Part shown: piece by piece, positions 13,787-37,274 of the stretch | Numbering within the stretch: position 1 is the first letter of the stretch | Layout: every line of letters starts with the position of its first letter | From: Lachnospiraceae bacterium | GTDB lineage: Bacteria; Bacillota; Clostridia; Lachnospirales; Lachnospiraceae | NCBI GenBank assembly: GCA_024405155.1 | Contig: JAKSPC010000008.1 | Span: 1 to 55,816, forward strand | Length of the DNA: 55,816 nucleotides | Reading direction: 5' to 3' | Translations under genes and position numbers: made by a program | Notes under the pieces: model-generated | What the model saw: the letters and a program-made list of their open reading frames with translations, nothing else | Told to the model about the DNA's origin: nothing | Databases searched by the model: none

Positions 13787-13824
13787 TCCTCGGCATGTAA
13801 TTCTGTATGCTTCTATTCAAGCGT

Positions 13825-13853
13825 ATCATAACTTACATGCCCTGATAAAACAA
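13825..13853 (-). promoter_or_regulatory. Sigma-A promoter of the ftsH operon
   Basis: Minus-strand TTGTTT, 17-bp spacer, TATGAT. The leader to the ftsH ATG is about 245 nt and contains the long palindrome. Confidence 0.6.
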
Positions 13854-13895
13854 GAAAAGCCGCCCACTTTTCACAAAGTGTTCAGCTTTTTCATT
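13851..13895 (-). terminator. Terminator after the NHLM exporter operon
   Basis: On the minus strand AAAAGC...GCTTTT encloses CACTTT-GTGA-AAAGTG and is followed by CTTGTTTT. It sits just after the exporter operon and touches the -35 of ftsH. Confidence 0.5.
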
Positions 13896-13919
13896 TTCCG
13901 GTAAGTTTTGTCGGATCGT

Positions 13920-16123: not shown

Positions 16124-18295
16124 CTACTCCGCGCTGACAAGATCACGATAGATCCTGCTGTTTTCCATAAGTTCCTTATGTGTTCCCCGGTCTCTGATCT
16201 CACCTTTTTCCATCACGATGATCTCATCGCAGGAACGGATGGTGGAAAGACGATGGGCAATGACGATACAGGTAATGCCTCTGTCACGGATCGCCTTTAC
16301 GACCTCGAACTCGGTCCGGGCGTCCAGTGCACCGGTGGCTTCGTCCAGAATGACGATCGTCGGATCCTGGGCAAGCGCTCTGGCGATCTCGATACGCTGC
16401 CGCTGGCCGCCGGAAAAGTCCCTGCCGCCTTCCTGCAGCTTGTACTGATACCCTTTCGGACGCTGTACGATAACGTCATGGATCCGGGCATCGCGGGCTG
16501 CGAGGATCATTTCAAAATCCTCGATGCTCCCGTCCCACATTTTGATATTGTTTTCTATGGTATCTTCGAAAAGAATGATATCCTGATCGACTACCGCCAT
16601 GGAACTGCGGAAAACATTCTTCGGGATCTTATTCAACGGTCTGCCGTCAAACAGGATCTCGCCGCTCCACGGCTGATAAAGCCCGGAGATCAGCTTTGCC
16701 ACGGTGGACTTTCCGCAGCCGGAAGCACCGACGATGGCAACGCTTTCCCCCGGTTTTACCGTAAGGTGAAAGTTTCTGATCAGCGGCTCGGCCAGCGGCG
16801 AATAGCCGAAAACGACATCTTTCAGTTCAACGTTTCCCTTAAGCTTCGCGGCGCCCGCGGCAGAGCCGTTTTCTTCGAAAACGTCATCATCGGGATATTC
16901 CATCACGTCATCCACCCGCTCCATCTGCGTGCGCATCTCCTGCAGGACCTGTCCGGAGGTGGTAAGGGATGCGGCAGGCGCCATGAAGGAAGTGAGAAAT
17001 CCCTGAAACGCCATGACCATGCCGACGGTAAACCGGCCCTGCATGGTGAGATAAACACCAAGAAAGAGAACCGTGCTGTTTGCCAGCATGGTGATAAGCT
17101 GCGGAATGCTGCCGATGTACCGGTCAAGCTTCAGATAGTTCACCCGCTGTGCGTTGACGTTTGCCTGATACCCCGACCATTTCTTGAAATAACCGTTTTC
17201 CGCGCCGGCGGATTTGATGGTCTCGATCATTTCGATCCCCGAGGTCGCGGCGGAACTGAGCTTTGCCTCGTCACGCATGGCGACACGGGTGATGTTGATG
17301 CGTTTTTTGGAAATGATCCTTGCGATAAGGATATTGATGAATACGGAAGAAATACCGATCAGCGACAAAGCGGCGCTGTATCTTATCATGACCACAAGGT
17401 AAAACACCACCATCACCGCGTTCAGCAAAAGCGGTGCCAGGGTATTGATCAGCGTGCCGGCAATGACGGCATTGGAAAGCTGGCGCTGCTGGATATCGCC
17501 GGCCATGCGCTGGGAGAAGAATTTCATGGGCAGGCGGAGTACCTTCCACATATAGGATGCACTGCCGACGACTGCCATTTTTCCGTTGATGCGCATGGCA
17601 TATACCGCCTGCAGAGCGGACATCAGTATTTCAATGACACTGAAAGCGGCGAGCAGTACAAAAAACGGCATGATCCAGTTTTTGTCCGTTCCGGTCAGCA
17701 GCCTGTCGATGAAGACCCGCGAAAACGCCGGCCGGAGAAAAGCGATCAGAGCCGCGATGATTCCCGTAAGTACGGTAAAGGCGATTGCCGGACCGGTCCC
17801 TTTCAGGCGTTTTGCCGCAAAGGAAAGCACGCTTTTGGGCTTTCCGGAAGGAACAAACCCTTCCGCAGGAAAAAATTCGATGCAGATGCCCGTGAAGGAA
17901 TCGTCAAAAAGCTCCATGGGTACACTGTAGAAGCCTCTTGCAGGATCATTCAGGTATGCCTTGCCGTTTTTAAAACCGCAAAGAACGACGAAGTGATTGA
18001 AATTCCAGTGGATAATGCAGGGGAATATGCCCTTTTCTCTCAGTTCCTCCGGCTCAAAGCGATATCCGGACGCTTCCAGTCCGTGATACTGCGCCGCCTT
18101 TACGATATTTTTTGCGCTGGCGCCGTCACGGGACACGCCGCAGTCCTCCCGCACCTGTTCCAACGGGATCCATTTGCCGTAATACGCCAGGACCATGCAC
18201 AGACACGCCGCGCCGCATTCCAGCGTTTCCAGCTGCATCACGACGGGCACTCTGGCAACGCCTTTTGATATTGGCTGATTCCCTTTCTCCGACAT
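16124..18295 (-). CDS. NHLM-type ABC transporter with C39 leader peptidase (PCAT)
   Basis: A 723-residue peptidase-containing ABC exporter. Its N-terminal C39 domain has the catalytic triad in place: C27 in LECGAACL, H101 in NHFVVL and D117 in NDPARG. Six membrane segments follow (about 155-440), then an ABC domain with Walker A GASGCGKSTVAKL, signature FSGGQRQR and Walker B VILDEATGALD. Such proteins cut leaders after Gly-Gly and export the core. Matching leaders (ELxxVxGG) are encoded at 25032-25455. AAGGAG lies at ideal distance. It is the middle gene of the exporter operon. Confidence 0.93.
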   Translation of the reverse strand: MSEKGNQPISKGVARVPVVMQLETLECGAACLCMVLAYYGKWIPLEQVREDCGVSRDGASAKNIVKAAQYHGLEASGYRFEPEELREKGIFPCIIHWNFNHFVVLCGFKNGKAYLNDPARGFYSVPMELFDDSFTGICIEFFPAEGFVPSGKPKSVLSFAAKRLKGTGPAIAFTVLTGIIAALIAFLRPAFSRVFIDRLLTGTDKNWIMPFFVLLAAFSVIEILMSALQAVYAMRINGKMAVVGSASYMWKVLRLPMKFFSQRMAGDIQQRQLSNAVIAGTLINTLAPLLLNAVMVVFYLVVMIRYSAALSLIGISSVFINILIARIISKKRINITRVAMRDEAKLSSAATSGIEMIETIKSAGAENGYFKKWSGYQANVNAQRVNYLKLDRYIGSIPQLITMLANSTVLFLGVYLTMQGRFTVGMVMAFQGFLTSFMAPAASLTTSGQVLQEMRTQMERVDDVMEYPDDDVFEENGSAAGAAKLKGNVELKDVVFGYSPLAEPLIRNFHLTVKPGESVAIVGASGCGKSTVAKLISGLYQPWSGEILFDGRPLNKIPKNVFRSSMAVVDQDIILFEDTIENNIKMWDGSIEDFEMILAARDARIHDVIVQRPKGYQYKLQEGGRDFSGGQRQRIEIARALAQDPTIVILDEATGALDARTEFEVVKAIRDRGITCIVIAHRLSTIRSCDEIIVMEKGEIRDRGTHKELMENSRIYRDLVSAE

Positions 18296-18305
18296 GAAAG
18301 CTCCT

Positions 18306-18728
18306 TTAATTCAGAATAAAAGAAAGCGGTCTGAAACTTTGAATGACGATCTTTCCGTCATAAAAGCCGTCCGGTACAGAGCTTTCTGCCGAAAGGGTGC
18401 AGACGTATCCGCCGTCCGTAAAACTCAGGCTTTTGACGACCGCTTCCTGCCCGGCAAAACGGACCGTCATCCCCGGTTTTACGGACGTGACGTATTCTTT
18501 CTCGATGGTGCCGGTGAGAGTCCCGCCTTCCGCATGAACGGAGACCGGCACGATGCTGTCGATGTGCCCGAAAGCCCCCCATATGCAGGCGCCGGTCAGA
18601 AGCAGGATCACTGCCGCCAGGATCAGCCATACCGCGGGATCGGTCACCTTGATGCATTCATCCAGGTTTTCCGGAGATCTCAATTTATCAAGACTTTTCT
18701 TTCTGAAAATATCTTCCTGCATTTCCAT
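18306..18728 (-). CDS. Short HlyD-like membrane protein of the exporter
   Basis: A 140-residue protein with one membrane segment (about 31-52, WLILAAVILLLTGACIWG) followed by a beta-rich periplasmic-side segment resembling the lipoyl/barrel part of HlyD-type adaptors (VSVHAEGGTLTGTIEKEYV). NHLM systems usually include a longer HlyD-family secretion protein; this one lacks the coiled-coil hairpin, as expected for a single-membrane cell where no outer-membrane bridge is needed. It is the first gene of the exporter operon, 10 bases before the PCAT gene. Identification rests on weak similarity plus position. Confidence 0.65.
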   Translation of the reverse strand: MEMQEDIFRKKSLDKLRSPENLDECIKVTDPAVWLILAAVILLLTGACIWGAFGHIDSIVPVSVHAEGGTLTGTIEKEYVTSVKPGMTVRFAGQEAVVKSLSFTDGGYVCTLSAESSVPDGFYDGKIVIQSFRPLSFILN

Positions 18729-18786
18729 ACCGTTCCTTTATCGTCTGTGACATATCGTCACATCTGTCCACACCTGATCATCGTAT

Positions 18787-18815
18787 ATGATACCGAAATT
18801 CACGAACGTTTACAA
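18787..18815 (-). promoter_or_regulatory. Sigma-A promoter of the exporter operon
   Basis: Minus-strand TTGTAA, 17-bp spacer, TATCAT, about 60 bases upstream of the HlyD-like gene. The ten-mer ATCATAATCG 11 bases beyond the -35 also occurs inside the promoter at 24849-24877, a possible shared operator. Confidence 0.55.
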
Positions 18816-18887
18816 CCGATTTCACATCATAATCGTGGACGTTATTCGAATTCGAAGCATTGCATTTCTCCTTTACAAAACAAACAT

Positions 18888-20567
18888 CTATAAATTGTCT
18901 TTATAAATGAACAAATATGCCTCATTAAAATTATTATAGCCAACTTCCGAAAGATTTTTTATTTCTCCGTCCGCCGGATCCATAACAAGAAAACTATCTG
19001 GCAAGAGTGAAGCACGATCAGTAATATTGTCTGCAACACCAACAATAGTAACCGCATGCCTGCCACTCATGTTATTGCAATTACATGCGTAAAGCATTGT
19101 TGGTTTTCCTTTAAGGAGTTCCTTATAAGCCAGACCAAAAACATTATGGGCAATGAATGCATGCTTATATCCAACATATCTCGCACCGTTATCACCCCAA
19201 TAAGGTTTTGACGTTGCATCATACTTTCTTCCGGTTATAATTGACAATCCCATACACCAGGCCGTTGATGTACAATTATTGGGCAATACCTGTTTCTCTG
19301 CGTGTTTTTCAAACCCCTTAAGCGCTGCATATTTTTCACCATTATAAGTGTATTCCGTGACGTTTTTCGGAGTAGAGTTCGAATCATCTCCATTTTCAAG
19401 AATATCAGCATCAGGTTTATATCGATAAAACTTAAAATCTCCTTCAAGACCGTGAAACTTAACCTTTTCCAGAATGGAGAAATCCCAATCCGGCGCTTTT
19501 ATTCCGAAATCTCCCGTTCTCATCTGATCAAGCCAATAACGCCACGGTGAATAGAATAACACGCATCCCCCGGTAAAATCTTCCTCTTCTTTTCGAAGCA
19601 CCGGAAGTACATTGCGAATAACCCTTTCGAATCTTTCATCCCCACACCGTTCTTCCAGATAAGTCTCAGCATCTTTAAAATGCTTTGAACGTAACTCACA
19701 TGCATTAAATCCTGTATATTTTGCAATATCCTCTGCTGTATGACAGTAGCTCCATTCTCTATAGCCGATACGGTTTACAATTACATGGGCAATGGCTTTC
19801 TGAACAGCATCTGCAGCATGTAATGCCTCTCCGCACACGGTACAGATCGCTATTTTTTCTTCCTCATAAATAGCCGGAAACGGTCCGTATCTTTCGTTGA
19901 TGAAAGGTCCGTGAATGGCGTATTTCTTTGTACCTTCGTCCGGTTTTCGCAGTTTTTCATCCAGACACTCCGGTCCCCTGAACCGGACTTCTGCCATTTC
20001 TTCATCCGAAATGAGCTGTTTCCTGTGAAGTGCCGCAGCATTGTTCATCATATATCTGTAAAACTCTTCTGGATAAACAAGAGGATTATATTTCCCGACT
20101 ACCGGAAGCAGGGAGATGAGCATAAAGCACTGGCGAAATGTGAGTTCTGCAGGAGTTTCATCAAAATAGAATCTCGCAGCCTCTGTAATACCATAAGTCC
20201 CGTTATCGAAATACACACAATTCAGATACAGTTCCAGGATCTGCTGTTTGCTGAGACTCTTCTCCATATAAAGCGTCATCATCAGCTCGGAGAACTTTCG
20301 TCTGAAGCTTGTATCGAACCCGAAATACAGGTTTTTGCAGATCTGCTGCGTAATGGTACTGCCGCCAAATCCTATTTTTCCGGCCTGTATGTTTAGCCAC
20401 AATGCCTCCAGAATCGCTTTTGGCTGGATACCATGATGTTTCATAAATGAAAAATCTTCGATCAGGATAAGGATCCTCACAAAATGCGAGGGCATATCAG
20501 TCAGACTGCAGAAATCCTTTTCTGCAGCCCGCTCTCTGTAGATTGCTTCAGGCTTGCGATACTTCAT
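18888..20567 (-). CDS. Three-domain protein: GT51 transglycosylase + SleB-like hydrolase + C39-like cysteine peptidase
   Basis: A 559-residue fusion. Residues about 25-175 are a GT51 peptidoglycan glycosyltransferase with intact motifs: EDFSFMKHHG (E37), GGSTITQQ (68-75), RRKFSE and KQQILELYLN. Residues about 235-345 match SleB-type cell-wall hydrolases: GEALHAADAVQKAIAHVIVN with the likely catalytic E247, and the terminal TGGCVLFYSP. Residues about 410-559 look like a C39/papain-like domain: C432 in NNCTSTAW, H504 in RHAVTIVGV, D530 in MDPADG. No signal peptide or membrane anchor is visible, odd for GT51. It follows the ABC gene by 23 bases. Substrates are unknown; the domain calls are mine from motifs. 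Confidence 0.82.
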   Translation of the reverse strand: MKYRKPEAIYRERAAEKDFCSLTDMPSHFVRILILIEDFSFMKHHGIQPKAILEALWLNIQAGKIGFGGSTITQQICKNLYFGFDTSFRRKFSELMMTLYMEKSLSKQQILELYLNCVYFDNGTYGITEAARFYFDETPAELTFRQCFMLISLLPVVGKYNPLVYPEEFYRYMMNNAAALHRKQLISDEEMAEVRFRGPECLDEKLRKPDEGTKKYAIHGPFINERYGPFPAIYEEEKIAICTVCGEALHAADAVQKAIAHVIVNRIGYREWSYCHTAEDIAKYTGFNACELRSKHFKDAETYLEERCGDERFERVIRNVLPVLRKEEEDFTGGCVLFYSPWRYWLDQMRTGDFGIKAPDWDFSILEKVKFHGLEGDFKFYRYKPDADILENGDDSNSTPKNVTEYTYNGEKYAALKGFEKHAEKQVLPNNCTSTAWCMGLSIITGRKYDATSKPYWGDNGARYVGYKHAFIAHNVFGLAYKELLKGKPTMLYACNCNNMSGRHAVTIVGVADNITDRASLLPDSFLVMDPADGEIKNLSEVGYNNFNEAYLFIYKDNL

Positions 20568-20590
20568 TTCTGATTATTTCTGTCTCTTTC

Positions 20591-22684
20591 TCAGGCTTCT
20601 TTCTGATACAGACTCCTGTATTCTTCTGATGTCTTCATCAGTTCATCATGTGTTCCTTCCGCCTCAATCATATGATCTTTCAGCAGGAAGATCTTTTCCG
20701 CATTTCTGATTGTTGTCAGTCTGTGCGCCACCATCAATATGGTATGATCCTTTTTAAGATCATCAAGCACACTGATGATCTTTTCCTGTGTTACGTTATC
20801 AATGGCGGAAGTAGCCTCATCAAACAGAATGATCTTACTTCCCTTGAGAAGCGCTCTGGCTATTGCAAGACGCTGCAGCTGCCCTCCCGAAACCTGAGTG
20901 CCCTTTTCTCCCAGCTCCATGTTGAAGCCGTCAGGATTCCTCTCAATATCCTCCAGTATGCATGCCTTCCGGCATGCTTCTTTTATTTCTTCCATCGTGG
21001 CATCCGGTTTTACCATACGTAAATTATCCAGCACTGTCGTATTAAAGAAATACGGTTTTTGGCTGACCATAGTAATATTATTCCTGATAGTTTCCTCATC
21101 GTATTCACGGATATCCGTCCCGTCCAGAAGGACCGTTCCGGACGAAGCACGATGGCTTCCCATGATGAGTTTAAAAGTCGTAGATTTTCCGCAGCCGCTT
21201 TTTCCTACAAACGCCGTACTGCTTGCCGGCGGAATAGTAAAGTTCAATTTTTCCAGCACCGATCTGTCATCTTCCGTCGGATCATCATGCCGGTAGGAAA
21301 AGCTGACATCTTCAAACTTTATTTCTCCAATAAGACGATCTGCATGTTTTTCACCATAGGAATCCTTAGGGAATGCAGAACCCGTGCACAAATCCACGAC
21401 ACGTTCGCAGGAAAGAGAAAACTGTTTGATCTGAGTCATGATATTCTGGATAAGCTTTACCGCGGGCATACCGATTATGGTAAAATAGTTATAAAGGATC
21501 AGACATTCAGTGATTAGCAGGATGCCCTCATGAACGGCATATCCAAAATAAATCATGATAAGGGAATACAATATAGCCGTGACGGCTTCATTGAGAACTC
21601 TTCTGTTGGTTGCGTTTCGCAGTGCGGTCCTTTCCTTCTGATTCGCCTGTACCTGTGCCTCTCTTACTCTTTCTATCACCAGTTCATTTTTTCCGAGCAT
21701 TTTTATTTCCCTGGCACCGTCAATGGCATCAGTCACCATACCAAAGCGTGTTTCATCTGCCACCGCGGACTTTTTGAGATCCAGATAAAGCAGGGTCGTT
21801 CTGCGCCTTTCCAAAAAGAAAAGGATCAGAAAAACTGCCAGTTCCCAGGCGCATACCACAGGATTGATCACAAAGGTGATAGCCAGAATGCCGATATAAT
21901 ACGCGACTTCTGAAATCTTATCAGCAAACCCCGTAAGGGCTTGTGCAATAGTCTCGGAATCATCCAGAATACGCTTGTTGAACGGTCCGCTTCCCATACT
22001 TTCAAAAACGCTGTCAGAGACCCTGAACATGTTCGTGATCAGATCCACGGTCAGATTCTCACGGGTCGTGTAGGCACATTCGTTATACAGGTCACCCGCC
22101 AGTTTGAAAAACAACGCATAGACTGCCCGTGCAGCCATGATGGCAATTGCTGTGACCACGACCTGCACAATTGCATCGTCAGTATAGTTTATAATCATGA
22201 CGCCCGTCAGATATGGAATTAAGACATTACATCCGATAGAGAGAATATGAAACGCGAATCCTCCGATCAGATATTTCTTTCCACTGCCAAGATAGCCAAA
22301 CGTCAGTTTCAGATACTCTTTGAAGGGATAATACTTCTCGATTCTTATATGAATTAAGTTTTTCCCCTGATGATTACTGTACGCTACCGCATACTCCATC
22401 TTCTTTGCGATATTATCAAGAATAAATACAGATTGCTCATTCTGCAGATCTTTCGGGCTGACTTCCTCTCCGGGAATCTCAAATTCCACATAAAATTCAC
22501 CGGTATTCCGAACTACCCGGTAAGAAATCTCCGTATTCTTTGAAAACCGGCTGCCATAAAGCAGAAGCAACTCTTCTGCGAAGATCGCAGCCGCTTTTAT
22601 GTCTTTCTTTTTCGCTCCATATTCCGAAAGCTCCGCTTTAATCTGATTGATCGTTTCATCTACTTTTCCGAGTTTCCCTTGCAT
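20591..22684 (-). CDS. ABC transporter (permease-ATPase) with extra N-terminal domain
   Basis: A 697-residue ABC exporter half-transporter. Residues 1-125 are a soluble domain whose pattern (AAAIFAEELLLLYG, then alternating beta strands) resembles a degenerate GHKL/anti-sigma-type ATPase; this is tentative. Six membrane segments (about 130-420) precede an ABC domain with Walker A GKSGCGKSTTFKL, signature VSGGQLQR, Walker B IILFDEATSAID and VAHRL. The ATG at 22684 has GAGGA upstream; an earlier ATG at 22738 that overlaps the previous stop is possible but lacks a ribosome site. It has no C39 peptidase, so its cargo may differ from that of the NHLM exporter. Confidence 0.85.
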   Translation of the reverse strand: MQGKLGKVDETINQIKAELSEYGAKKKDIKAAAIFAEELLLLYGSRFSKNTEISYRVVRNTGEFYVEFEIPGEEVSPKDLQNEQSVFILDNIAKKMEYAVAYSNHQGKNLIHIRIEKYYPFKEYLKLTFGYLGSGKKYLIGGFAFHILSIGCNVLIPYLTGVMIINYTDDAIVQVVVTAIAIMAARAVYALFFKLAGDLYNECAYTTRENLTVDLITNMFRVSDSVFESMGSGPFNKRILDDSETIAQALTGFADKISEVAYYIGILAITFVINPVVCAWELAVFLILFFLERRRTTLLYLDLKKSAVADETRFGMVTDAIDGAREIKMLGKNELVIERVREAQVQANQKERTALRNATNRRVLNEAVTAILYSLIMIYFGYAVHEGILLITECLILYNYFTIIGMPAVKLIQNIMTQIKQFSLSCERVVDLCTGSAFPKDSYGEKHADRLIGEIKFEDVSFSYRHDDPTEDDRSVLEKLNFTIPPASSTAFVGKSGCGKSTTFKLIMGSHRASSGTVLLDGTDIREYDEETIRNNITMVSQKPYFFNTTVLDNLRMVKPDATMEEIKEACRKACILEDIERNPDGFNMELGEKGTQVSGGQLQRLAIARALLKGSKIILFDEATSAIDNVTQEKIISVLDDLKKDHTILMVAHRLTTIRNAEKIFLLKDHMIEAEGTHDELMKTSEEYRSLYQKEA

Positions 22685-22734
22685 TGTATTCCTCTTTTTT
22701 CTACATTCTTCTTTGTCTCTGCTTATTCCTGCCG

Positions 22735-23595
22735 TCATCTGAATGGTTTTAACAATCTGCCCTTTATGCGTTTCAACTCATGCTTGAATGTATAAAGCGT
22801 TTCTATTATGTCCTTAAAGTACACATTATAAGCAAGGTGTAATTTATAGTGATACAGGGTATCGATATTTGAACATCCGGCATCAGACAAAACTTTGCAG
22901 ATCTCTCTTGCTGCCGTCCTGGAACAACGCAGCAGTTCCCCGCCATCCATTGATGTTAATGCTCTGTCATCATGATACAGTATGTAACAATAATTCCTGA
23001 TATCTTCTACAACAACGGACTTGCATTTAAGAGCGTACTCCGTCATAAAAAGTGTATCTTCCATAAATTTAATGTTTTCTCTAAACCGGATATGGTTCTT
23101 ACGAATAATATCCAGCCTTAACGCTTTTCCCAATGTATATCCTAACGAATCGTTATAAACCATATGATATACATCCTCAACGGAAAGATCCCGGGTATGG
23201 AATGTCTCTATTGACCGCTCAAACGCAATAGTGCCGTCTTCTTTCAGGATATCACCATTCTGACAGACAAAATCAGCGTTTTTTTCAAGCAGTTCCCGCA
23301 AATAAGCAGGTTTTACATAATCATCACTGTCAACGAATGTAATAAACTCACCACAGGCAATATCAAGGCCGGCATTTCTCGCTGACGATACGCCGCCGTT
23401 TTTCTTGTGAATCACGATAACGCGATTATCCTTTGCTTTATAATCCTCGCATATTGCATAGCATTTATCCGGTGAGCCATCATCCACGAGAATAAGTTCA
23501 AAGTCTGTAAAAGTCTGTGCGAGAATACTGTCAACACAACGCTGCAAATATGCTTCTGTTTTATAGATCGGCACAATTACGCTGATCTGTGGCAT
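22735..23595 (-). CDS. GT2 family glycosyltransferase
   Basis: A 286-residue GT-A glycosyltransferase with SVIVPIYKTEAYLQRCVDS, the nucleotide-sugar site LVDDGSPD and the metal-binding TFVDSDDYV. Length and layout match small cytoplasmic transferases that add one sugar to a lipid-linked or peptide acceptor. The ATG at 23595 starts just after the MurT-like stop (23600); GGAA is the only ribosome-site-like element, so translation is probably coupled. Acceptor and sugar are not determinable. It belongs to the AT-rich operon beginning at 24787. Confidence 0.88.
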   Translation of the reverse strand: MPQISVIVPIYKTEAYLQRCVDSILAQTFTDFELILVDDGSPDKCYAICEDYKAKDNRVIVIHKKNGGVSSARNAGLDIACGEFITFVDSDDYVKPAYLRELLEKNADFVCQNGDILKEDGTIAFERSIETFHTRDLSVEDVYHMVYNDSLGYTLGKALRLDIIRKNHIRFRENIKFMEDTLFMTEYALKCKSVVVEDIRNYCYILYHDDRALTSMDGGELLRCSRTAAREICKVLSDAGCSNIDTLYHYKLHLAYNVYFKDIIETLYTFKHELKRIKGRLLKPFR

Positions 23596-23599
23596 CGTA

Positions 23600-24787
23600 T
23601 CATTTCCAGTAATCAAGCACATATTTTTGCCGCGCCATTTCCTTTCGTACCTTCATCATACAGGTGTAGTTCAAAATCATATAAACAGGTTCCCTGCTTT
23701 CTTTTATCATTTCAATCAAATGTCCTGCGTTTTTCGTTGATCTGAAGGGAATGTCCATAGAACACAGCGTTTTCTCTGTTTCATCACATAAATCGGTAAA
23801 TACAATTACTTCCGTAAAGTATTTTTCATAATCCTTCCATGGTACATCACTGATCCAACTCAGATCTTTTCCGTCTTTAAGATCGTTATCAAATCCCAAA
23901 ACCCATCTTGTTGAATTAAAGTTTTCTGTAATATACTGAACGCTCTCATATACTCCTGCCGGATTTTTAGCCAGATTCATAATAACAGGCGTTGATCCGA
24001 TTTCTATTTTTTCCATTCGCCCAAAAACAGGCTGCAATGTTTGCAGCGAGTCAACGGCTGTCCCGGATAATAATCCGACGGCATATAATGATGCCATTGC
24101 CGCTGCAGCATTGCCTGTATTGTATTCTCCGGGAATACCGAGCTTTACCTGAAAAGGATTTCCCGCAATAAAAATATTATTTCCACTGACACTATATTCT
24201 ATTCTTTTTTGAGAGCTCAGTTTTTCTGCCAACTGTTTTGAATACTTATCAGCCGCATTCATACAGATAATTCCCTGATAATCAGAAAGCCCCTCATGAA
24301 ACATTTCGACAACATCTTCGGGAAGTCCAAGTCTGTCGGTTTGATTTTTGCAAATGTTGGTTATCGTAATACATACAGGCTTTATTGCCCATAAAAGCTT
24401 TATTAAATACTTCTCATCGCATTCAAGAACAGCAATATCATTTACAGGTCTTTTTTTTCCGAGATCATAATTATCAATCAAAACAGTCAATAAACTGTTT
24501 TCCATATTTTCTCCGTTCCTTGAGTATGCGCATTGTATCTGAAGAGCGTTCAGCATATGCGCGGCCGCATGAACTGCCGTAGTTTTGCCATTTGATCCGG
24601 TAATTATGATCGTACGAACTTCTGAGGTCAGCTCAGATAAAAGCTGAGGGTCAATTATCCGGGCGGCATGTCCCGGAATATTGGTTCCTCCACTGTGTAA
24701 TCCACGGCATAAAGCGCGCAGGGATTTTGCAATTATGACAGCAAAAGTCTTCCTTATTCTTTTATACAGAGTATTTGTTTTTTTCAT
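23600..24787 (-). CDS. MurT-like Mur ligase lacking the zinc ribbon
   Basis: A 395-residue Mur ligase of the MurT (DUF1727) branch. Visible are the P-loop TGSNGKTT, LECDEKYL, the family hallmark TNICKNQTDRLG, GEYNTGNAAAA, the C-terminal NLAKNPAGVYESVQYI and DGKDLSWISDVPW. In cellular MurT a four-cysteine ribbon sits before the GxYNxxNA motif; here that insert is absent. MurT works with GatD to amidate lipid II glutamate, but no gatD is adjacent. The paralogue therefore may act on another acidic substrate, for example an exported peptide or a modified wall precursor (inference). It is the first gene of a four-gene run to 18888. Confidence 0.85.
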   Translation of the reverse strand: MKKTNTLYKRIRKTFAVIIAKSLRALCRGLHSGGTNIPGHAARIIDPQLLSELTSEVRTIIITGSNGKTTAVHAAAHMLNALQIQCAYSRNGENMENSLLTVLIDNYDLGKKRPVNDIAVLECDEKYLIKLLWAIKPVCITITNICKNQTDRLGLPEDVVEMFHEGLSDYQGIICMNAADKYSKQLAEKLSSQKRIEYSVSGNNIFIAGNPFQVKLGIPGEYNTGNAAAAMASLYAVGLLSGTAVDSLQTLQPVFGRMEKIEIGSTPVIMNLAKNPAGVYESVQYITENFNSTRWVLGFDNDLKDGKDLSWISDVPWKDYEKYFTEVIVFTDLCDETEKTLCSMDIPFRSTKNAGHLIEMIKESREPVYMILNYTCMMKVRKEMARQKYVLDYWK

Positions 24788-24836
24788 TATATGTCCCGGT
24801 CTGCTGCAATAGTTTAACATTTATTCTGACATAAGG

Positions 24837-24877
24837 ATTATATCATGGATTATATCATAATCGATGTCGCGTTACAA
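24837..24877 (-). promoter_or_regulatory. Promoter of the MurT-like operon
   Basis: Minus-strand TTGTAA (24872-24877), 17-bp spacer and TATAAT (24849-24854). A second TATAAT lies 12 bp downstream at 24837-24842 as part of a GATATAATCC direct repeat. The gene starts at 24787. Confidence 0.7.
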
Positions 24878-24899
24878 TTTTTCCCCTTTATGCTATAAT
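24872..24899 (+). promoter_or_regulatory. Rightward promoter sharing its -35 with the MurT-like promoter
   Basis: Plus-strand TTACAA (24872-24877), 16-bp spacer and extended TGCTATAAT ending at 24899. The six -35 bases are the same base pairs used by the leftward promoter. The transcript would run antisense into the precursor peptide genes and starts with a TAAATGCAAC/GTTGCATTTA hairpin (about 24928-24953). No plus-strand gene is visible. Confidence 0.5.
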
Positions 24900-24987
24900 C
24901 CTTTGAAAGTTTTGAAAGATTTCAAGTAAATGCAACTTTGGGGTTGCATTTAAGTTGAATGAATTCCAATCACTGATTTGATGCCAT

Positions 24988-25014
24988 AAAAAAAGGGACC
25001 TCATCGAGATCCCT
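24988..25014 (-). terminator. Terminator after the precursor peptide genes
   Basis: Minus-strand AGGGATCTC-GAT-GAGGTCCCT is a 9-bp stem with seven T residues behind it, 18 bases past the stop at 25032. It separates the peptide genes from the MurT-like promoter. Confidence 0.85.
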
Positions 25015-25031
25015 TCCTCAATATAGCAGAT

Positions 25032-25208
25032 TTAAGATTTATTGGAACTCAACTCTTCGCTGGCCGGCGGGCACAAACTGACGCTGGGTTGCACAAGGCC
25101 GCCGGAGCCACCTGTCACTTTTTCCAGCTCTTTCTCGGAAAGCTGACGCGCTTCCTGCTTTTCTTCACAGGGCGCGTTGTTCTTCAGTTCGTTGTTATCG
25201 TTCGTCAT
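25032..25208 (-). CDS. Putative secreted peptide precursor 1 with double-glycine leader
   Basis: A 58-residue peptide. The leader (1-34) is rich in E, K and N and ends LSEKELEKVTGG, the ELxxVxGG pattern recognised by C39 exporters. The predicted core after GG is 24 residues, starts SGGLVQ, is rich in Ser and Pro (QPSVSLCPP) and has a single cysteine. GGAG stands eight bases before the ATG at 25208. It lies 31 bases after precursor 2 and before a strong terminator. The core resembles no family I recognise; modification is unknown. The PCAT at 16124 is the obvious processing partner. Confidence 0.8.
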   Translation of the reverse strand: MTNDNNELKNNAPCEEKQEARQLSEKELEKVTGGSGGLVQPSVSLCPPASEELSSNKS

Positions 25209-25239
25209 GGTGATTTCTCCTCTCAATGTTCAGAAATTC

Positions 25240-25455
25240 TCAGTTGAAGGTCAGAAGCGCATCCTCTTCAATCTGTTGAATTAAAGCATCAATCTCTTTC
25301 TTTATGGTACTTCTGTCCACGTCAGTGTTAGTGCCGAGGTGTGTATCGCCGCCATTGACCTGCGCAAGCTCCTCCTCTGTCAGCTCATGCAGCTTTTCAT
25401 TCACAGCTTCAACCCCTTCTTTAATCTTGTTCAGTTCTTCTTTACTCTTTGACAT
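25240..25455 (-). CDS. Putative secreted peptide precursor 2 with double-glycine leader
   Basis: A 71-residue peptide whose leader (1-36) ends LTEEELAQVNGG, closely parallel to precursor 1. The predicted core of 35 residues starts DTHLGTNTDVD, has no cysteine, is acidic and continues as a likely amphipathic helix (KKEIDALIQQIEEDALL). GGAGG lies eight bases upstream of the ATG at 25455. The two cores are unrelated to each other while the leaders match, which is common for peptides sharing one exporter. It follows the Lnt-like gene by about 80 bases. Confidence 0.8.
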   Translation of the reverse strand: MSKSKEELNKIKEGVEAVNEKLHELTEEELAQVNGGDTHLGTNTDVDRSTIKKEIDALIQQIEEDALLTFN

Positions 25456-25538
25456 TGTAATTCCTCCGTTCATCTGATTATAATTCTGGAAGATAGATCT
25501 GCATTCCGACCTTTGCTTTAAATTCGATAGCCTTACTA

Positions 25539-27011
25539 TTATAGTTGCTTCTTTTTCCTGAAAATGAATCCGCTACATACTGCAAAGACGGAATACAGCA
25601 CACAAATCCACGGGAACCAGTTGCCGGTCATTCCGTAGAAGGTCTGTCTTCCTTCCTTCGGGATGTCAAGATACATAATTCCCATATGAACGTTCATAGC
25701 GTTAGCCATATGGATCGGACGCCCATGGCAATCATAAAGAATAATGTTACCATTAACAGGATTTCTCAGGACTGAAAATCCGCATTCAATTGCTCGTGCC
25801 TGAACACCATAAGATGTAAAGTACTGGAAGGCCTGCCAATCATAGGAGGGATTCAGGAATATGTCCGCTTCCCGTCCGTTATAGGCGTACTTGTTTGATG
25901 TGTAATCGGCACAGATCAGGTAGGTGTATTTCACACCATCTATTTCAACAATCGGTGTTTTCCCATCACCTCTTTCCGTGTCCGGTTCTTCAACGATAGG
26001 CACAAGATGATTTTTAACATATGTATTTAATAATTTTCCATTTCTGTCAATGAAGTTCAGTGTATTTACTTTTTTTGCACCTTCTTCATTAGGTAATATT
26101 ATTAACGGGAACAAAATGTTCATATTATGCTCTTTGGCTATTCTTTGAACTTCGGAAATAAAACCATCTGTCATATCTTCAGTACATCCAAATGCTATTT
26201 CCGGGAACACCAATATGTCAGATCCATTATAGGTAGCATCTTTTGCATTTTCATCAATAGCATCTATGCTTGCCTTTACAATTTTTTCTACTTCTGTTCC
26301 TTCGTATTCATCAAGAATTTCTTTGTTTTCTGCCAAATAATTGGAGTTATCAACGCTCACTGCTACCCTTACGGTTTGATCTCCGGTTGTGATTTTCTGA
26401 ATACTGCTCATACCAATACCGGTAATTATTACAACAACAATACCGTAAGAAACGGCAATAATTACTGCTTTTCTGTTCAAGCCTTCTTCCCAAATATAGT
26501 TTATAACAGAGGCACAAAGTGTCACAACAAACGAAACACCGACAACACCGGTAACGCTTGCCAACTGCATCAGACCTATATTCCAGAATTGAGACACCGA
26601 AAGAGAGGTCATTACCGAAACGAAGGGATTGTCAATGAAGAACTCGGAGACTGCGACCGCAGCCGGAAAAGCAAGATAGGCAATGATCTTCTTTGCCCTG
26701 AACTTCCTGCAAAGGAAATATACGAAGAACGGAAACCAGATTCTTATACCGTTAAAGGTACAGAACACCTGATTCATGATATCAAAACCATCTTTTACCA
26801 GTCCCCAGAATGTAATGTTTGCTACAATAACCGTTCCAAGGAGCATCCAAAGGATTGAAGACCACTTTGGACGGATATTGATATACCGGATCAGCGGTAT
26901 TGCAAACAGCCATGCGCAAATGCCGGTATTGAAAATGCCATAGGAAAACAACGCTAAGACAAGTCCCAGAAGCAACCATAAATACGGAAATTTTTCTTCG
27001 ATCTTTTTCAT
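25539..27011 (-). CDS. Lnt-like membrane N-acyltransferase (nitrilase superfamily)
   Basis: A 490-residue protein with six or so N-terminal membrane segments (about 5-195), a nitrilase domain (about 215-455) and a last membrane segment (about 463-482), the architecture of apolipoprotein N-acyltransferase. The catalytic triad can be placed: E in VFPEIAFG, K in YVKNHLVP and C in YLICADY. Lnt proper is uncommon in Firmicutes, so this is likely a specialised relative acting at the membrane. AAGGAG is correctly spaced for the ATG at 27011 and too close for the one at 27017. It lies between a lipoprotein gene and the two precursor genes, which could be its substrates (inference). Confidence 0.82.
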   Translation of the reverse strand: MKKIEEKFPYLWLLLGLVLALFSYGIFNTGICAWLFAIPLIRYINIRPKWSSILWMLLGTVIVANITFWGLVKDGFDIMNQVFCTFNGIRIWFPFFVYFLCRKFRAKKIIAYLAFPAAVAVSEFFIDNPFVSVMTSLSVSQFWNIGLMQLASVTGVVGVSFVVTLCASVINYIWEEGLNRKAVIIAVSYGIVVVIITGIGMSSIQKITTGDQTVRVAVSVDNSNYLAENKEILDEYEGTEVEKIVKASIDAIDENAKDATYNGSDILVFPEIAFGCTEDMTDGFISEVQRIAKEHNMNILFPLIILPNEEGAKKVNTLNFIDRNGKLLNTYVKNHLVPIVEEPDTERGDGKTPIVEIDGVKYTYLICADYTSNKYAYNGREADIFLNPSYDWQAFQYFTSYGVQARAIECGFSVLRNPVNGNIILYDCHGRPIHMANAMNVHMGIMYLDIPKEGRQTFYGMTGNWFPWICVLYSVFAVCSGFIFRKKKQL

Positions 27012-27025
27012 CACCATTGTCTCCT

Positions 27026-28417
27026 TTATTTCAATATTCTACTGACGTCAAATTCATACGTCGAATCTTCTTTTTCAAAGAAACGGATAATTACACTCTT
27101 TCCCTTACAATTGACAGAAAACTGCAGGCCGGTTGTCATGATTTCACCGACATCTCTAAGTGGCTTTTCATTTCCATCATAGTATTGAAGGAGCTTTTCT
27201 TTGAATCCGTTTTTAACAAATAAGTCTTTACACAGTTCAACAACCGTTTCGGCGTTTTCCGGAGCCATCATCCATCTCATAGATTTGCCGGATAATGGTA
27301 ATTCATCTGATCCCCAGATTTCTTCAACCATAGAAATATAAATATCCGAACGCCAGTCTAATATCGGATTACCCTTGTCATCCACAAAATGGATTGTTCC
27401 ATTATCATCGATATAGGTACAGTCGGCATAAAGAACCATGTCTCTCCACATCGCTTTTTTCATGTGGTGGAGCATCTCTTCCTGCGTTTCTATTTTTTCT
27501 AATCCTTCAAGCACTCTTTCAAGACGTCCGTATCCGGAACCAACTTCGTCGATGGCATTGCATACAGGATTCAGATAATAATTGGCCTGTCCATTCTGAT
27601 ACGGTAGATAATAAATCTGATTTCCTGCAATTTCCACGATTCCATAGTCTCCGGCAGCATCACCCATAAGATAGGAAATTTCTGTAAAACCATCTTCATT
27701 CTTTCGGGGTGTTGAAAAGATATCAAGATCATTTTTTATAAATGATACTGCTTCTTCCACTGTTGCACAGTTCTGTGCGACAAGTGTTGATATCATATCT
27801 ATTCTGGCCCTCGTTTTTCCGGGATTTGTCCCGGTATTATAAAATGCCGGACCTGATTCTCTGGCATTTCCCTGAATAAAGAGACCTTCTGAGTTCATAC
27901 AATCTGTGGCGCTAAACGCAAGAAGATTAATGAAGTCCTTATCCTTATAGCCTTCGTTCCTGAATTCCTCATATGTATATAAATCGCCGGTCAGGTAACG
28001 ATATCCGATCGTTTTATATTTCCCATATGAAGTAGTAATGATGTAAGCAGGGTATTGAGATATTTCCATATCCTGATTTCGCCCTACCAACACTTCACCA
28101 TTACTGTTTTTCTTCACGCAGGAGGTACACAGTCCGCCTTCTGTATTGTTTGAAACAATCTGAGCATACGAAACTGCCGACTCAAGGTCAGCCGATTCAA
28201 AATTATCGATCCAGATCAGATAATCTCCGAAGTCAGTAAAGCCTGTCCCATTTTCTGAGTGACACAATTTCTGGACTTTCTTGTAATTATCATCAACGTC
28301 TGCAGTGTTATTATCAATCTTCGTTGCACAGGATGTCATCGTCAAAAGAAGCAACATTGCTGTCAGCAGTGTAAACACCATGTTTGGTATTCTCTTTAAT
28401 TGTTTCTTGGTATTCAA
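27026..28417 (-). CDS. Lipoprotein Ntn hydrolase (penicillin V acylase / choloylglycine hydrolase-like)
   Basis: A 463-residue exported lipoprotein: positively charged N-terminus, hydrophobic segment and lipobox LTMTSC with C30. The body matches cysteine Ntn amidases: nucleophile C97 in LCTSCVKK followed by the diagnostic GEVLVGRNQDM, and later GLFIQGNARES and GDAAGDYGIVEIAG. Such enzymes cleave linear amides (penicillin V, bile salts, acyl peptides or acyl-homoserine lactones). The start is TTG, overlapping the TGA of the regulator gene, with GGGAG eight bases upstream. The enzyme would be at the outer membrane face. C97 lies inside the chain, so activation by cleavage would detach the lipid anchor unless the fragments stay together. 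Confidence 0.85.
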   Translation of the reverse strand: MNTKKQLKRIPNMVFTLLTAMLLLLTMTSCATKIDNNTADVDDNYKKVQKLCHSENGTGFTDFGDYLIWIDNFESADLESAVSYAQIVSNNTEGGLCTSCVKKNSNGEVLVGRNQDMEISQYPAYIITTSYGKYKTIGYRYLTGDLYTYEEFRNEGYKDKDFINLLAFSATDCMNSEGLFIQGNARESGPAFYNTGTNPGKTRARIDMISTLVAQNCATVEEAVSFIKNDLDIFSTPRKNEDGFTEISYLMGDAAGDYGIVEIAGNQIYYLPYQNGQANYYLNPVCNAIDEVGSGYGRLERVLEGLEKIETQEEMLHHMKKAMWRDMVLYADCTYIDDNGTIHFVDDKGNPILDWRSDIYISMVEEIWGSDELPLSGKSMRWMMAPENAETVVELCKDLFVKNGFKEKLLQYYDGNEKPLRDVGEIMTTGLQFSVNCKGKSVIIRFFEKEDSTYEFDVSRILK

Positions 28418-28656
28418 ATCGTTTCACTCCCGTTTACAACATTAAAAATTTCTCTCTTCACGTAAGTCAGTTCTATATCGTATCCGAGAGCTTCCATCAT
28501 ATTCACAAAGGTGTTGTTTACCACTCCATCCGGCTTTTTTATAACACGATTGACATAGGATCTTGTTATTCCAATATCCTCGGCAATCTGAGCCTGGGTG
28601 GTTCCGTTTTCTATGCATTTAACTTTGACATCAACTTCAATATTGTTCTTAACCAT
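28414..28656 (-). CDS. XRE-type helix-turn-helix regulator
   Basis: An 80-residue protein with a single helix-turn-helix (TTQAQIAEDIGITRSYVNRVI). GGAG at proper spacing supports the ATG at 28656; the earlier ATG at 28677 has none. Its stop overlaps the TTG start of the lipoprotein gene by translational coupling, so it heads the operon that runs through the Ntn hydrolase, Lnt-like protein and both peptides. A dyad next to its promoter suggests autoregulation. Confidence 0.8.
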   Translation of the reverse strand: MVKNNIEVDVKVKCIENGTTQAQIAEDIGITRSYVNRVIKKPDGVVNNTFVNMMEALGYDIELTYVKREIFNVVNGSETI

Positions 28657-28682
28657 ACTCTCTCTCCGAATAGCCATGTTTC

Positions 28683-28700: not shown

Positions 28701-28727
28701 TATACACCTAAATTGTGAACTATTCAA
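28699..28727 (-). promoter_or_regulatory. Promoter of the XRE / Ntn / Lnt / peptide operon
   Basis: Minus-strand TTGAAT, 17-bp spacer, TATAAC; the -10 touches the dyad operator. The promoter runs into the 3' end of the recombinase remnant. Confidence 0.55.
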
Positions 28728-28944
28728 TTAGCCTTCTTGTAAGGGCATCGGAGTATTCGGAAAGAAAATCGTTCTGCTCGTCCAGGAATTTCTTCATGTC
28801 CTCAAAGCGCTCGATCCTGTCCTGCTCCAAGGCACCCTCGGTAAGAAGCTTTTGTTTTTCTTCCCGAAGCGTGATGATGTCATTTCCGATATCATCGGCT
28901 TTGACCGCATCCCTTTCGTTTCTTCTTTTGTCTCTGTCATGTTT
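28720..28944 (-). pseudogene. Remnant of a large serine recombinase (C-terminal fragment)
   Basis: The readable segment resembles the coiled C-terminal part of transposon-type serine recombinases: a Lys/Glu-rich helix (LREEKQKLLTE) and the ending LSEYSDALTRRLIE, which in intact proteins continues into KVT-type strands. Here a stop follows immediately, and no resolvase catalytic domain or zinc ribbon is found upstream. It marks an old mobile element boundary. Confidence 0.5.
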
Positions 28945-28987
28945 TCCCCTATATATTTTTTGTAAAATCGACCTCGGTTGTCTGTAT

Positions 28988-29022
28988 ATATAAATACCAT
29001 AAATACCATAAATACCAAGTTC
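28988..29022. repeat. Short tandem repeat (ATAAATACC, 9 bp)
   Basis: The nine-mer ATAAATACC is repeated three times with partial copies on both sides, next to the recombinase remnant. Confidence 0.7.
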
Positions 29023-29242
29023 CGTGTAAGAAAAAGCAGGATCCATGCAAAAAGGGAGGAGGCAACGGAGCACTTAAGAACCCCCCGAGCGCCCGTCTCC
29101 TCTCCCATCCGCTGTCGCAGCGCAACACCCTATGACTATGAGCCGGGAGGGGCCAGATGGGCGAAAGAAAGGGCATTTGGCTGAAAAGGATCCGTCAGAT
29201 GACGGACGAGGATTTGCTAAGAAACTGAAGGAGAAATGGGAA

Positions 29243-29438: not shown

Positions 29439-30425
29439 ATGAAAAAAGCAATAGTTATTTTAGCAGCAGCATTGTTTGCAGCCTTAATGAGCGGATGCGC
29501 GAATATGCAGGCGACAGTGTCAGAATCAGTTGAGTCACCTGCGAATGAAACGGCGAAAGAGACAGCCGCAGTGAAAGAGAGCGCTGCAGAGACAGTAGCC
29601 GTTGAGGCAGAATCGGCGGAACCGATTTCCGAAAGTGCTAAAGAGGCAGTGCCGGACGAAACAGAGACTGAGACTCCTTCTATGGACATCATTCCGGAAT
29701 CATATGCCTATTCACTTATTGTGGCAATCAATCCGACTGTCGAACTCTATTTTGATAAAAACGATGTGATCAATGGAGTGGCTTTCCTTAATGACGATGC
29801 CGTTAATGCATACAAGGATCTGGAACTTGTAGGAGCAAGCCTTGAAGACGGAATGGAGCTGATAATTGCCCGGGCAGAATCAGAAGGATACCTGAAAGAA
29901 AACGGAGATGTTCAGGTCGAGCTCAGCAAGATAGGAACAGTGGAAAAAGAGATGGATTCCTCTGTGATAGTCAATGCTGTAGAAACAGTTGAGGCGATAT
30001 TGACGGCAGATAATGGTGAAACCGGGATAAGTGTTAATGCAAGTGTAAATAACGAGGTCACTGAACAAACAGGATTAACGGCACCCGAGGCCTGTCCGAC
30101 CTGCTCGGGTACGGGAAAGAGCTGCAGCGAATGCGGCGGGACCGGAATTGTTAATTGCAAACGCTGCGATAACGGAATTGAATCCTGCGGAACATGCCAC
30201 GGCACAGCTGTTATTAGCTGTCATGGATGTCACGGTGCGGGAACCGTAGGAGATCTTGGTGAAACATGCAATCGCTGCGGCGGGACCGGAGAACAGTCCT
30301 GCGATGCATGCCATGGACAGGGAACCTTTCTATGTTCATGGTGCAAGGGAGAGTTAAAGCACGTTTGTCCTGAGTGTTGGGGTGAATGCGACTGCCCGGA
30401 CTGCAGCGGGACCGGCTGGAAATAA
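29439..30425 (+). CDS. Lipoprotein with DnaJ-type CxxCxGxG zinc-finger repeats
   Basis: A 328-residue exported lipoprotein with signal peptide and lipobox LMSGC (C20). Residues about 25-75 are a low-complexity Glu/Ala/Ser linker (SESVESPANETAKETAA). A middle domain (about 80-205) is unrecognised. The C-terminal 110 residues carry about seven CxxCxG-type pairs (CPTCSGTG, CSECGGTG, CDACHGQG, CPDCSGTG), the zinc-finger pattern of DnaJ. An extracellular cysteine-rich zinc module is unusual. It is the first plus-strand gene of the window and stands alone among remnants. Function unknown. Confidence 0.75.
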   Translation: MKKAIVILAAALFAALMSGCANMQATVSESVESPANETAKETAAVKESAAETVAVEAESAEPISESAKEAVPDETETETPSMDIIPESYAYSLIVAINPTVELYFDKNDVINGVAFLNDDAVNAYKDLELVGASLEDGMELIIARAESEGYLKENGDVQVELSKIGTVEKEMDSSVIVNAVETVEAILTADNGETGISVNASVNNEVTEQTGLTAPEACPTCSGTGKSCSECGGTGIVNCKRCDNGIESCGTCHGTAVISCHGCHGAGTVGDLGETCNRCGGTGEQSCDACHGQGTFLCSWCKGELKHVCPECWGECDCPDCSGTGWK

Positions 30426-37159: not shown

Positions 37160-37274
37160 GAAAATCCCCATTCATTTTGGTCTTCTGCATACTATTTTTT
37201 TTATCCTGTTTATTGTTCGTTTCATTTCCTTTTAGGCCGTCGTCCGGCTCACTGTCACGTATCTCCTGCCGGAC

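Follow-up and report, generated by a model that had tools for sequence, protein, structure and literature searches.

Do peptide precursors that share one tightly packed locus with cell-wall and acyl enzymes also share a pathway with them? The question is raised by a stretch of 55,816 nucleotides from a Lachnospiraceae bacterium (contig JAKSPC010000008.1, assembly GCA_024405155.1), which we call the window over its whole length, and in which an earlier note, made from the sequence alone, had marked positions 18306-28656 as a candidate undescribed peptide system. The genes concerned all lie on one strand, as that note had described; it is the minus strand, which also holds the features below unless a plus strand is given. 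They are tightly spaced. In 5' to 3' order they encode a helix-turn-helix (HTH) protein, a C45-like enzyme, an Lnt-like enzyme, two peptide precursors (prec1 and prec2), a MurT-like ligase, a GT2 glycosyltransferase, an ABC protein (ABC3), a GT51 fusion protein, an HlyD-like protein and the exporter subunits ABC1 and ABC2. Our analysis suggests that this is probably a known kind of double-glycine (GG) peptide export locus combined with an acquired block of envelope enzymes, and that these enzymes probably act on the envelope of the producing cell.

A probable locus for double-glycine peptide export

The exporter genes are of the NHLP type. ABC1 (16124-18295), a C39 peptidase joined to an ABC exporter, scores 896.7 bits against the NCBIfam model TIGR03796 (cut-off 853.3); ABC2 (13920-16109), the second exporter subunit, reaches 708.7 bits with TIGR03797, 0.7 bits under the cut-off of 709.4; and the HlyD-like subunit (18306-18728; 140 residues, one transmembrane (TM) segment) stays at 34.3 bits, far under the TIGR03794 cut-off of 156.2. 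An alignment built from three ABC1 proteins was used to search genome contigs; of at least 554 confirmed relatives we kept the best 80 (58-73% identity; loci L040-L119). ABC1 and ABC2 are present in 80/80 of these loci and HlyD in 79/80, which share its short form. Among the ABC proteins of the locus, Pfam places Peptidase_C39 in ABC1 only. Of the C39 exporter pair claimed earlier, a C39-ABC protein and a second ABC protein thus exist, the C39 domain is confined to the first, and the pair lies outside 18306-28656.

The two precursors, described earlier as carrying ELxxVxGG leaders, both pass the NCBIfam model bacteriocin_sig (TIGR01847, cut-off 15.7), prec1 with 20.2 bits and prec2 marginally, with 15.8 bits, by 0.1 bit. 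The prec1 frame opens at 25473 and its gene is placed at 25240-25455; prec2 (frame 25226-25032) is placed at 25032-25208. The inferred starts at ATG 25455 and ATG 25208 are likely; each is preceded, by reading, by a ribosome-type GGAGG/GAGG-like site. Prec1 comprises a 36-residue leader (MSKSK...AQVNGG) and a 35-residue core (DTHLG...LLTFN) with a charge of -5 and no Cys, and prec2 a 34-residue leader (MTNDN...EKVTGG) and the 24-residue, Ser-rich core SGGLVQPSVSLCPPASEELSSNKS, with a charge of -1 and one Cys. Neither matches the NHLP or Nif11 leader models of NCBIfam at E<=0.05. A strict GG-leader motif, which also fits prec1 and prec2, occurs on the exporter strand in 32/80 related loci vs 2/80 on the opposite strand, so the likeness is more than chance. 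The prec1 leader is moreover identical at 12/32 positions to a GG peptide adjoining the nearest complete exporter, L041.

These data make a GG-peptide export locus well supported. ABC1 would remove the leaders of prec1 and prec2 through its C39 domain and, together with ABC2 and the short HlyD, release the cores of 35 and 24 residues as soluble peptides, probably signals or weak bacteriocins.

Three described systems resemble this half of the locus. A transporter trio of this type has been reported to serve varied leaders and tailoring enzymes (PMC2887384). The NHLP/Nif11 cassette treated there likewise combines a C39-ABC protein, a second ABC protein and an HlyD-like gene with GG leaders and precursors close by, but the window differs in its 140-residue HlyD that falls under TIGR03794, in its short ELxxVxGG leaders, and in adjoining enzymes unlike those found at related exporters. 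The LahT-type AMS/PCAT exporter of Lachnospiraceae C6A11 (PMC6363468) also uses a C39 protease that cuts GG leaders ahead of diverse cores, but the C6A11 cluster makes lanthipeptides, and none of their enzymes was found in the window. Two-peptide class II bacteriocins (PMC13289728) share the two successive GG-leader peptides and the C39 exporter; the window cores are, in contrast, acidic or near neutral and hydrophilic, and no immunity gene was recognised beside them. That no lanthipeptide, radical SAM or YcaO enzyme is present, as claimed earlier, holds among the proteins scanned.

The enzyme block was not found at the related exporters tested

Co-conservation in other genomes was the check that the earlier note had proposed for a single system. 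By tblastn (E<=1e-3), GT51, GT2, MurT, Lnt, C45, the HTH gene, prec1 and prec2 each have a relative in 0/80 exporter loci, in which the upstream DNA at ABC1 measures at least 2.5 kb in 68/80 and at least 6.5 kb in 48/80, flanks being partly cut by contig ends. ABC3 matches all 80 through ABC similarity, and none of the matches spans its N-terminal domain. Searches with phmmer (GT51, GT2, MurT, Lnt, C45, prec1, prec2, the HTH protein and AsnB; E<=0.01) returned two matches only, both small GG-type proteins: prec1 with L041 (E 0.004) and prec2 with L067 (E 0.0067). L041 itself, whose exporter subunits are 71 and 73% identical to those of the window, carries the GG peptide with the prec1-like leader and none of these enzymes. 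Among 25 genomes of the genus, ABC1 is present in three others: in G718 (61%) a GG-leader PepSY peptide adjoins the exporter instead, in G717 (59%) the exporter stands at a contig edge, and G726 is discussed below. The few enzyme relatives whose surroundings were examined (MurT-like in G362, C45 in G222, Lnt-like in G726 and G393) likewise lie outside such a locus. The check thus came out against co-conservation among the nearest exporters. No description of this gene set was found in the open-licence literature, among the matches listed.

The survey also revealed what these exporters carry instead. Single-linkage clustering of 832 neighbouring open reading frames (ORFs) of the 80 loci gave a SpoIIE family of 67 ORFs in 39/80 loci and a STAS family of 44 ORFs in 38/80, with one or the other in 47/80 loci, followed by Nif11-leader precursors (37 ORFs, 18/80 loci), radical SAM/SPASM proteins (21 ORFs, 20/80) and ECF sigma factors (19 ORFs, 18/80). 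SpoIIE accounts for 32/264 ORFs within 1 kb of the exporter, 20/191 at 1-3 kb, 13/248 at 3-6 kb and 2/129 beyond. A separate Pfam scan covered 100 neighbours, left from a list of 148 (chosen from 364) once 48 HlyD-like proteins or parts of exporters had been removed by eye, and returned SpoIIE for 15, sigma-70 region 2 for 12 and Radical_SAM for 6. None of the SpoIIE, STAS, sigma, radical SAM and Nif11 families occurs in the window at E<=1e-4, and no publication with both SpoIIE and STAS was found among the matches listed. These SpoIIE/STAS regulators beside many exporters of the NHLP/Nif11 clade are a result of the survey in its own right.

Composition and predicted transcription of the block

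The six block enzymes (C45, Lnt, MurT, GT2, ABC3 and GT51) have a GC content of 0.388-0.440 and an island-like codon use; ABC1 (0.538) and ABC2 (0.555) are host-like when set against flanking reference genes (0.534-0.576). The block enzymes are compositionally foreign and appear to form a block acquired from elsewhere. The low-GC stretch extends as far as about 37 kb and takes in further, unrelated genes. A comparison of the ftsH site with 11 same-genus regions (two of them, L156 and L161, shorter than 3 kb) found neither exporter nor block beside ftsH, and shows only that the stretch differs.

A strong intrinsic terminator stands between the precursors and the wall enzymes. It lies 3' of prec2 (24989-25019; 14-pair stem, loop of 3, T run) and folds at -17.7 kcal/mol (z -3.49; 0/200 shuffles equally stable); a consensus scan for promoters and terminators did not have this hairpin among its entries. 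That scan places a sigma-70-like promoter with TG before the -10 element upstream of the MurT-like gene (24849-24877; 10/12 matches), a kind of site that is not rare there (40 found vs 27.6 expected). A second terminator-like hairpin lies 3' of ABC2 (13848-13896), within a stretch (13800-13919) that folds at -30.8 kcal/mol (z -3.35; 0/200 shuffles equally stable). The simplest division would give one unit of HTH, C45, Lnt, prec1 and prec2 that ends at the terminator, and a second of MurT, GT2, ABC3 and GT51, possibly with HlyD, ABC1 and ABC2. The HTH_3-type protein at the head of the first unit (28414-28677; 87 residues, HTH_3 26.1 bits, cut-off 23) is likely a regulator.

Wall enzymes of the block

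The MurT-like ligase (23600-24820; 406 residues) passes the Pfam cut-offs for Mur_ligase_M (47.4 bits) and MurT_C (45.1 bits), and scores 126.2 and 112.2 bits with the NCBIfam MurT equivalogs, under their cut-offs of 800. Relatives are found in 86/396 other family genomes at E<=1e-5. In an alignment with six of these hits, all family MurTs, 6/6 possess a Cys4 zinc-ribbon insertion which the window protein lacks. It keeps the P-loop and a DGxDxSW motif; in the alignment with solved MurT chains among its PDB relatives, the second Asp of this motif stands at position 349. For MurT/GatD, the lipid II isoglutaminyl synthase, the triad of GatD is reported to be completed by MurT-D349 (PMC6113224). 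The window protein resembles this MurT in its Mur_ligase_M and MurT_C domains, its P-loop and its Asp at the 349 equivalent, and differs from it in the absence of the Cys4 zinc ribbon and in that no GATase_3 (GatD-type) protein was found in its own genome (0/1, 93% complete; control genomes 14/14 positive). Since this partner was not found, glutamine-dependent amidation by the protein is unlikely. The earlier identification of a MurT-like ligase stands as to its domains, less the ribbon and the partner. Its best relative (G362; 26% identity, 409-residue frame) also lacks the zinc ribbon and is encoded by a stand-alone gene (L023:16939-18132) that adjoins a MatE-HATPase fusion, with no peptide locus there. 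Among plasmids 15 records match, and the named ones are annotated as MurT or Mur ligase where annotated. The adjacent GT2 (22735-23622) passes its Pfam cut-off with 119.2 bits.

ABC3 (20591-22738) is an MsbA/PglK-like ABC protein, by Pfam, NCBIfam and alignment, with an N-terminal domain of about 150 residues and no C39 domain in Pfam. The N-terminal domain recurs ahead of symporter-like proteins (L034, L035, L037, L038 and L039) and shows up weakly in L036, where it ends a MetN-like ATPase; its alignment holds only two invariant residues, and HATPase-like is a candidate label, given by eye.

The last gene of the block (18888-20567) encodes what had been described as a GT51-SleB-C39 fusion. 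The GT51 part is clear (PF00912, 164.3 bits, cut-off 27), with intact motifs in the Transgly domain by reading. The SleB-like middle reaches Hydrolase_2 with 17.4 bits at best (cut-off 27), and the papain/C39-like tail matches nothing in Pfam up to E=10, hence neither C39 nor C39_2 was detected; Cys/His/Asp motifs can be read in it. The tail gave one weak partial match in 391 other genomes of the order (L002, to a protein that itself matches C39_2 weakly) and none in 310 other genomes of the class, samples that overlap. Pattern scans of genome and viral contigs, by which near relatives only are detectable, gave no confirmed full-domain relative; searches against the PDB gave chance-like repeats only; and a structure model of the tail was unusable (mean predicted local distance difference test score, pLDDT, 34.1). 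The full fusion matches 467 plasmid records, of which, among the matches listed, all cover the transglycosylase part and none extends over 80% of the query. A blastp match between residues 294-357 and a GG-leader ORF of L065 (E 6e-4) was rejected as chance, as neither tblastn nor phmmer reproduced it.

The fusion has no predicted signal and no TM-like segment (maximum Kyte-Doolittle value 1.32 over 19 residues), and ABC3 ends 23 bases upstream, which leaves no room for such a segment. The fusion should therefore be cytosolic, a location that should fit neither polymerisation outside the cell nor wall digestion, barring another export route. GT2 and the MurT-like protein also lack TM-like segments, so all three probably act on the cytosolic side.

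Acyl enzymes of the block

The C45/AAT/CBAH-like hydrolase or acyltransferase (27026-28417) scores 30.5 bits with PF02275 and 28.8 bits with PF03417, both over cut-off, and 43.6 bits with NF040521 (cut-off 85). Reading of the sequence reveals a lipobox-like LTMTSC and a Cys-Thr/GRNxD motif, which suggest a probable lipoprotein. The Lnt-like membrane protein (25539-27017) possesses LNT_N (32.1 bits) and CN_hydrolase (53.2 bits) domains over cut-off and Glu/Lys/Cys motifs by reading, and stays under the TIGR00546 equivalog cut-off (67.9 vs 132.9 bits). With GT2, the Lnt-like acyltransferase and the penicillin-acylase-like (C45/AAT) lipoprotein named earlier are thus borne out by their Pfam scores.

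C45 has a relative in one of 298 other family genomes at E<=1e-8 (G222), with no peptide locus in the surrounding 20 kb. The Lnt-like protein has one in 24 other genus genomes at E<=1e-5 (G726, a GGDEF fusion) and one in 124 other family genomes at E<=1e-10 (G393), both outside any such locus, and no match among phages. The G393 gene (L164) stands in line with genes that read as acyl carrier protein- and AMP ligase-like, and a carrier-fed acyltransferase pathway is possible there. Lnt acylation has been reported for RiPP-lipoprotein hybrids (PMC12636315; RiPP, ribosomally synthesized and post-translationally modified peptide), with which the window shares the notion that a peptide of ribosomal origin is N-acylated at the membrane. 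Their peptide carries a lipobox and goes through the general lipoprotein pathway; the window differs in having GG leaders without a lipobox and a local Lnt-like gene.

One pathway, two neighbours or coincidence

Under the reading that we favour, a peptide export locus beside an acquired block, the block enzymes would most likely modify the producer's envelope, for example a lipid-linked wall precursor, in self-protection or surface chemistry rather than peptide tailoring. Several observations weigh against it. The peptide system is split into two halves, and the block lies exactly between them, all on one strand. No terminator was found in the GT51-HlyD gap (fold z 0.11), so co-transcription of the exporter with the block could occur, and no hairpin separates Lnt from prec1 (fold z 0.80). 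The codon use of prec1 is island-like (57/503 island windows reach its score, and 0/277 exporter windows are as low); that of prec2, which counts in favour of the reading, is exporter-like (0/519 island windows reach its score, and 67/285 exporter windows are as low). The locus is thus a mosaic whose precursors lack one common signature. G726 has a distant C45/AAT-family gene, only 24% identical to the window C45 over 201 residues, immediately upstream of an NHLP exporter that shares 35% identity with ABC1. The role in self-protection is putative. Exporters of this type vary in the tailoring enzymes found with them, so the absence of the block beside related exporters is weak evidence.

Part of this evidence would suit a single new pathway, in which the exported cores are acylated at their newly formed N-terminus by the Lnt-like protein and trimmed or deacylated by C45; a modified wall precursor, the product of the MurT-like ligase, GT2, ABC3 and GT51, would either be joined to them or protect them. 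The interleaved order with short gaps, the precursors downstream of C45 and Lnt with no hairpin between, the exporter downstream of the four wall genes with no terminator between, the catalytic-looking motifs of GT51, Lnt, C45 and the MurT-like protein, and the G726 arrangement are all in its favour. It is met by 0/80 exporter loci with any of these enzymes, by a GT51 tail without a full-domain relative in the order and class genomes, by wall enzymes without export signals, by the missing GatD-type partner, and by the terminator ahead of MurT; we regard it as unlikely. We are similarly doubtful of the peptide class that it would establish, an Lnt-acylated, C45-processed, GG-exported core tied to a modified wall precursor that would be made by a ribbon-less, GatD-free MurT-like ligase with the help of a GT2, a flippase of the ABC type and a GT51 fusion in the cytosol. 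The proposal that the wall and acyl enzymes and the precursors form one system is not supported, as the set was not found at related exporters. Joint action of peptides and enzymes is possible, the interleaved order and G726 being the two observations that point to it; acylation at the membrane and later release of the peptide would be one form of it. Adjacency is all that speaks for attachment of the peptide to a wall precursor, or for its synthesis with one, and this reading is not supported. At the other extreme, an unrelated envelope or surface-glycan gene block may have landed beside an older peptide exporter with no tie between them. The differing composition of block and exporter, the terminator after prec2 with the promoter-like site before MurT, the related exporters without the block and the run of unrelated genes in the low-GC stretch agree with such a coincidence, but the shared strand, the tight spacing, the block's position between precursors and exporter and the island-like codon use of prec1 do not, and we hold it to be improbable. 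A glycocin-like locus, in which GT2 would glycosylate the cores at Ser, Thr or Cys and only then would they be exported, could draw on a GT2 without a TM segment, on the presence of GG precursors together with a C39 exporter, and on the Ser-rich prec2 core with its one Cys. GT2 scores 22.2 bits against the SunS-family model vs a cut-off of 350, no GT2 occurs in the 80 related loci, and nested disulfides are excluded because prec1 has no Cys and the prec2 core only one. We reject this reading on the SunS score and the Cys count; it is very improbable. The combination of an export locus with an acquired, envelope-modifying block remains our preferred reading.

Neighbouring genes

Just upstream of the HTH gene, a frame at 28720-29073 may, by reading, resemble the C terminus of large serine recombinases; it has no match in plasmids, Pfam or NCBIfam, and the reading as a serine recombinase relic was set aside. 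Further along the low-GC stretch, a gene at 29439-30425 (plus strand) encodes a probable lipoprotein with an RsgI-type middle domain and, by reading, C-terminal DnaJ-like CxxCxGxG repeats. An asparagine-synthase-like gene (33885-35429, plus strand) encodes a protein that reads as lacking the usual nucleophile Cys at its start and has weak similarity to lasso and macrolactam cyclases. A glycosyltransferase-like gene (35411-37171) has the lowest GC among the genes measured, 0.309.

Implications

The locus places an exporter of known type beside an enzyme set not seen at the related exporters tested. Its zinc-ribbon-less, GatD-less MurT-like ligase and anchor-less GT51 fusion are testable oddities in themselves. 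Should peptides and enzymes turn out to work together, the locus would represent a new peptide class, acylated or linked to the wall; otherwise it is a caution against inferring one pathway from a mobile stretch of mixed origin.

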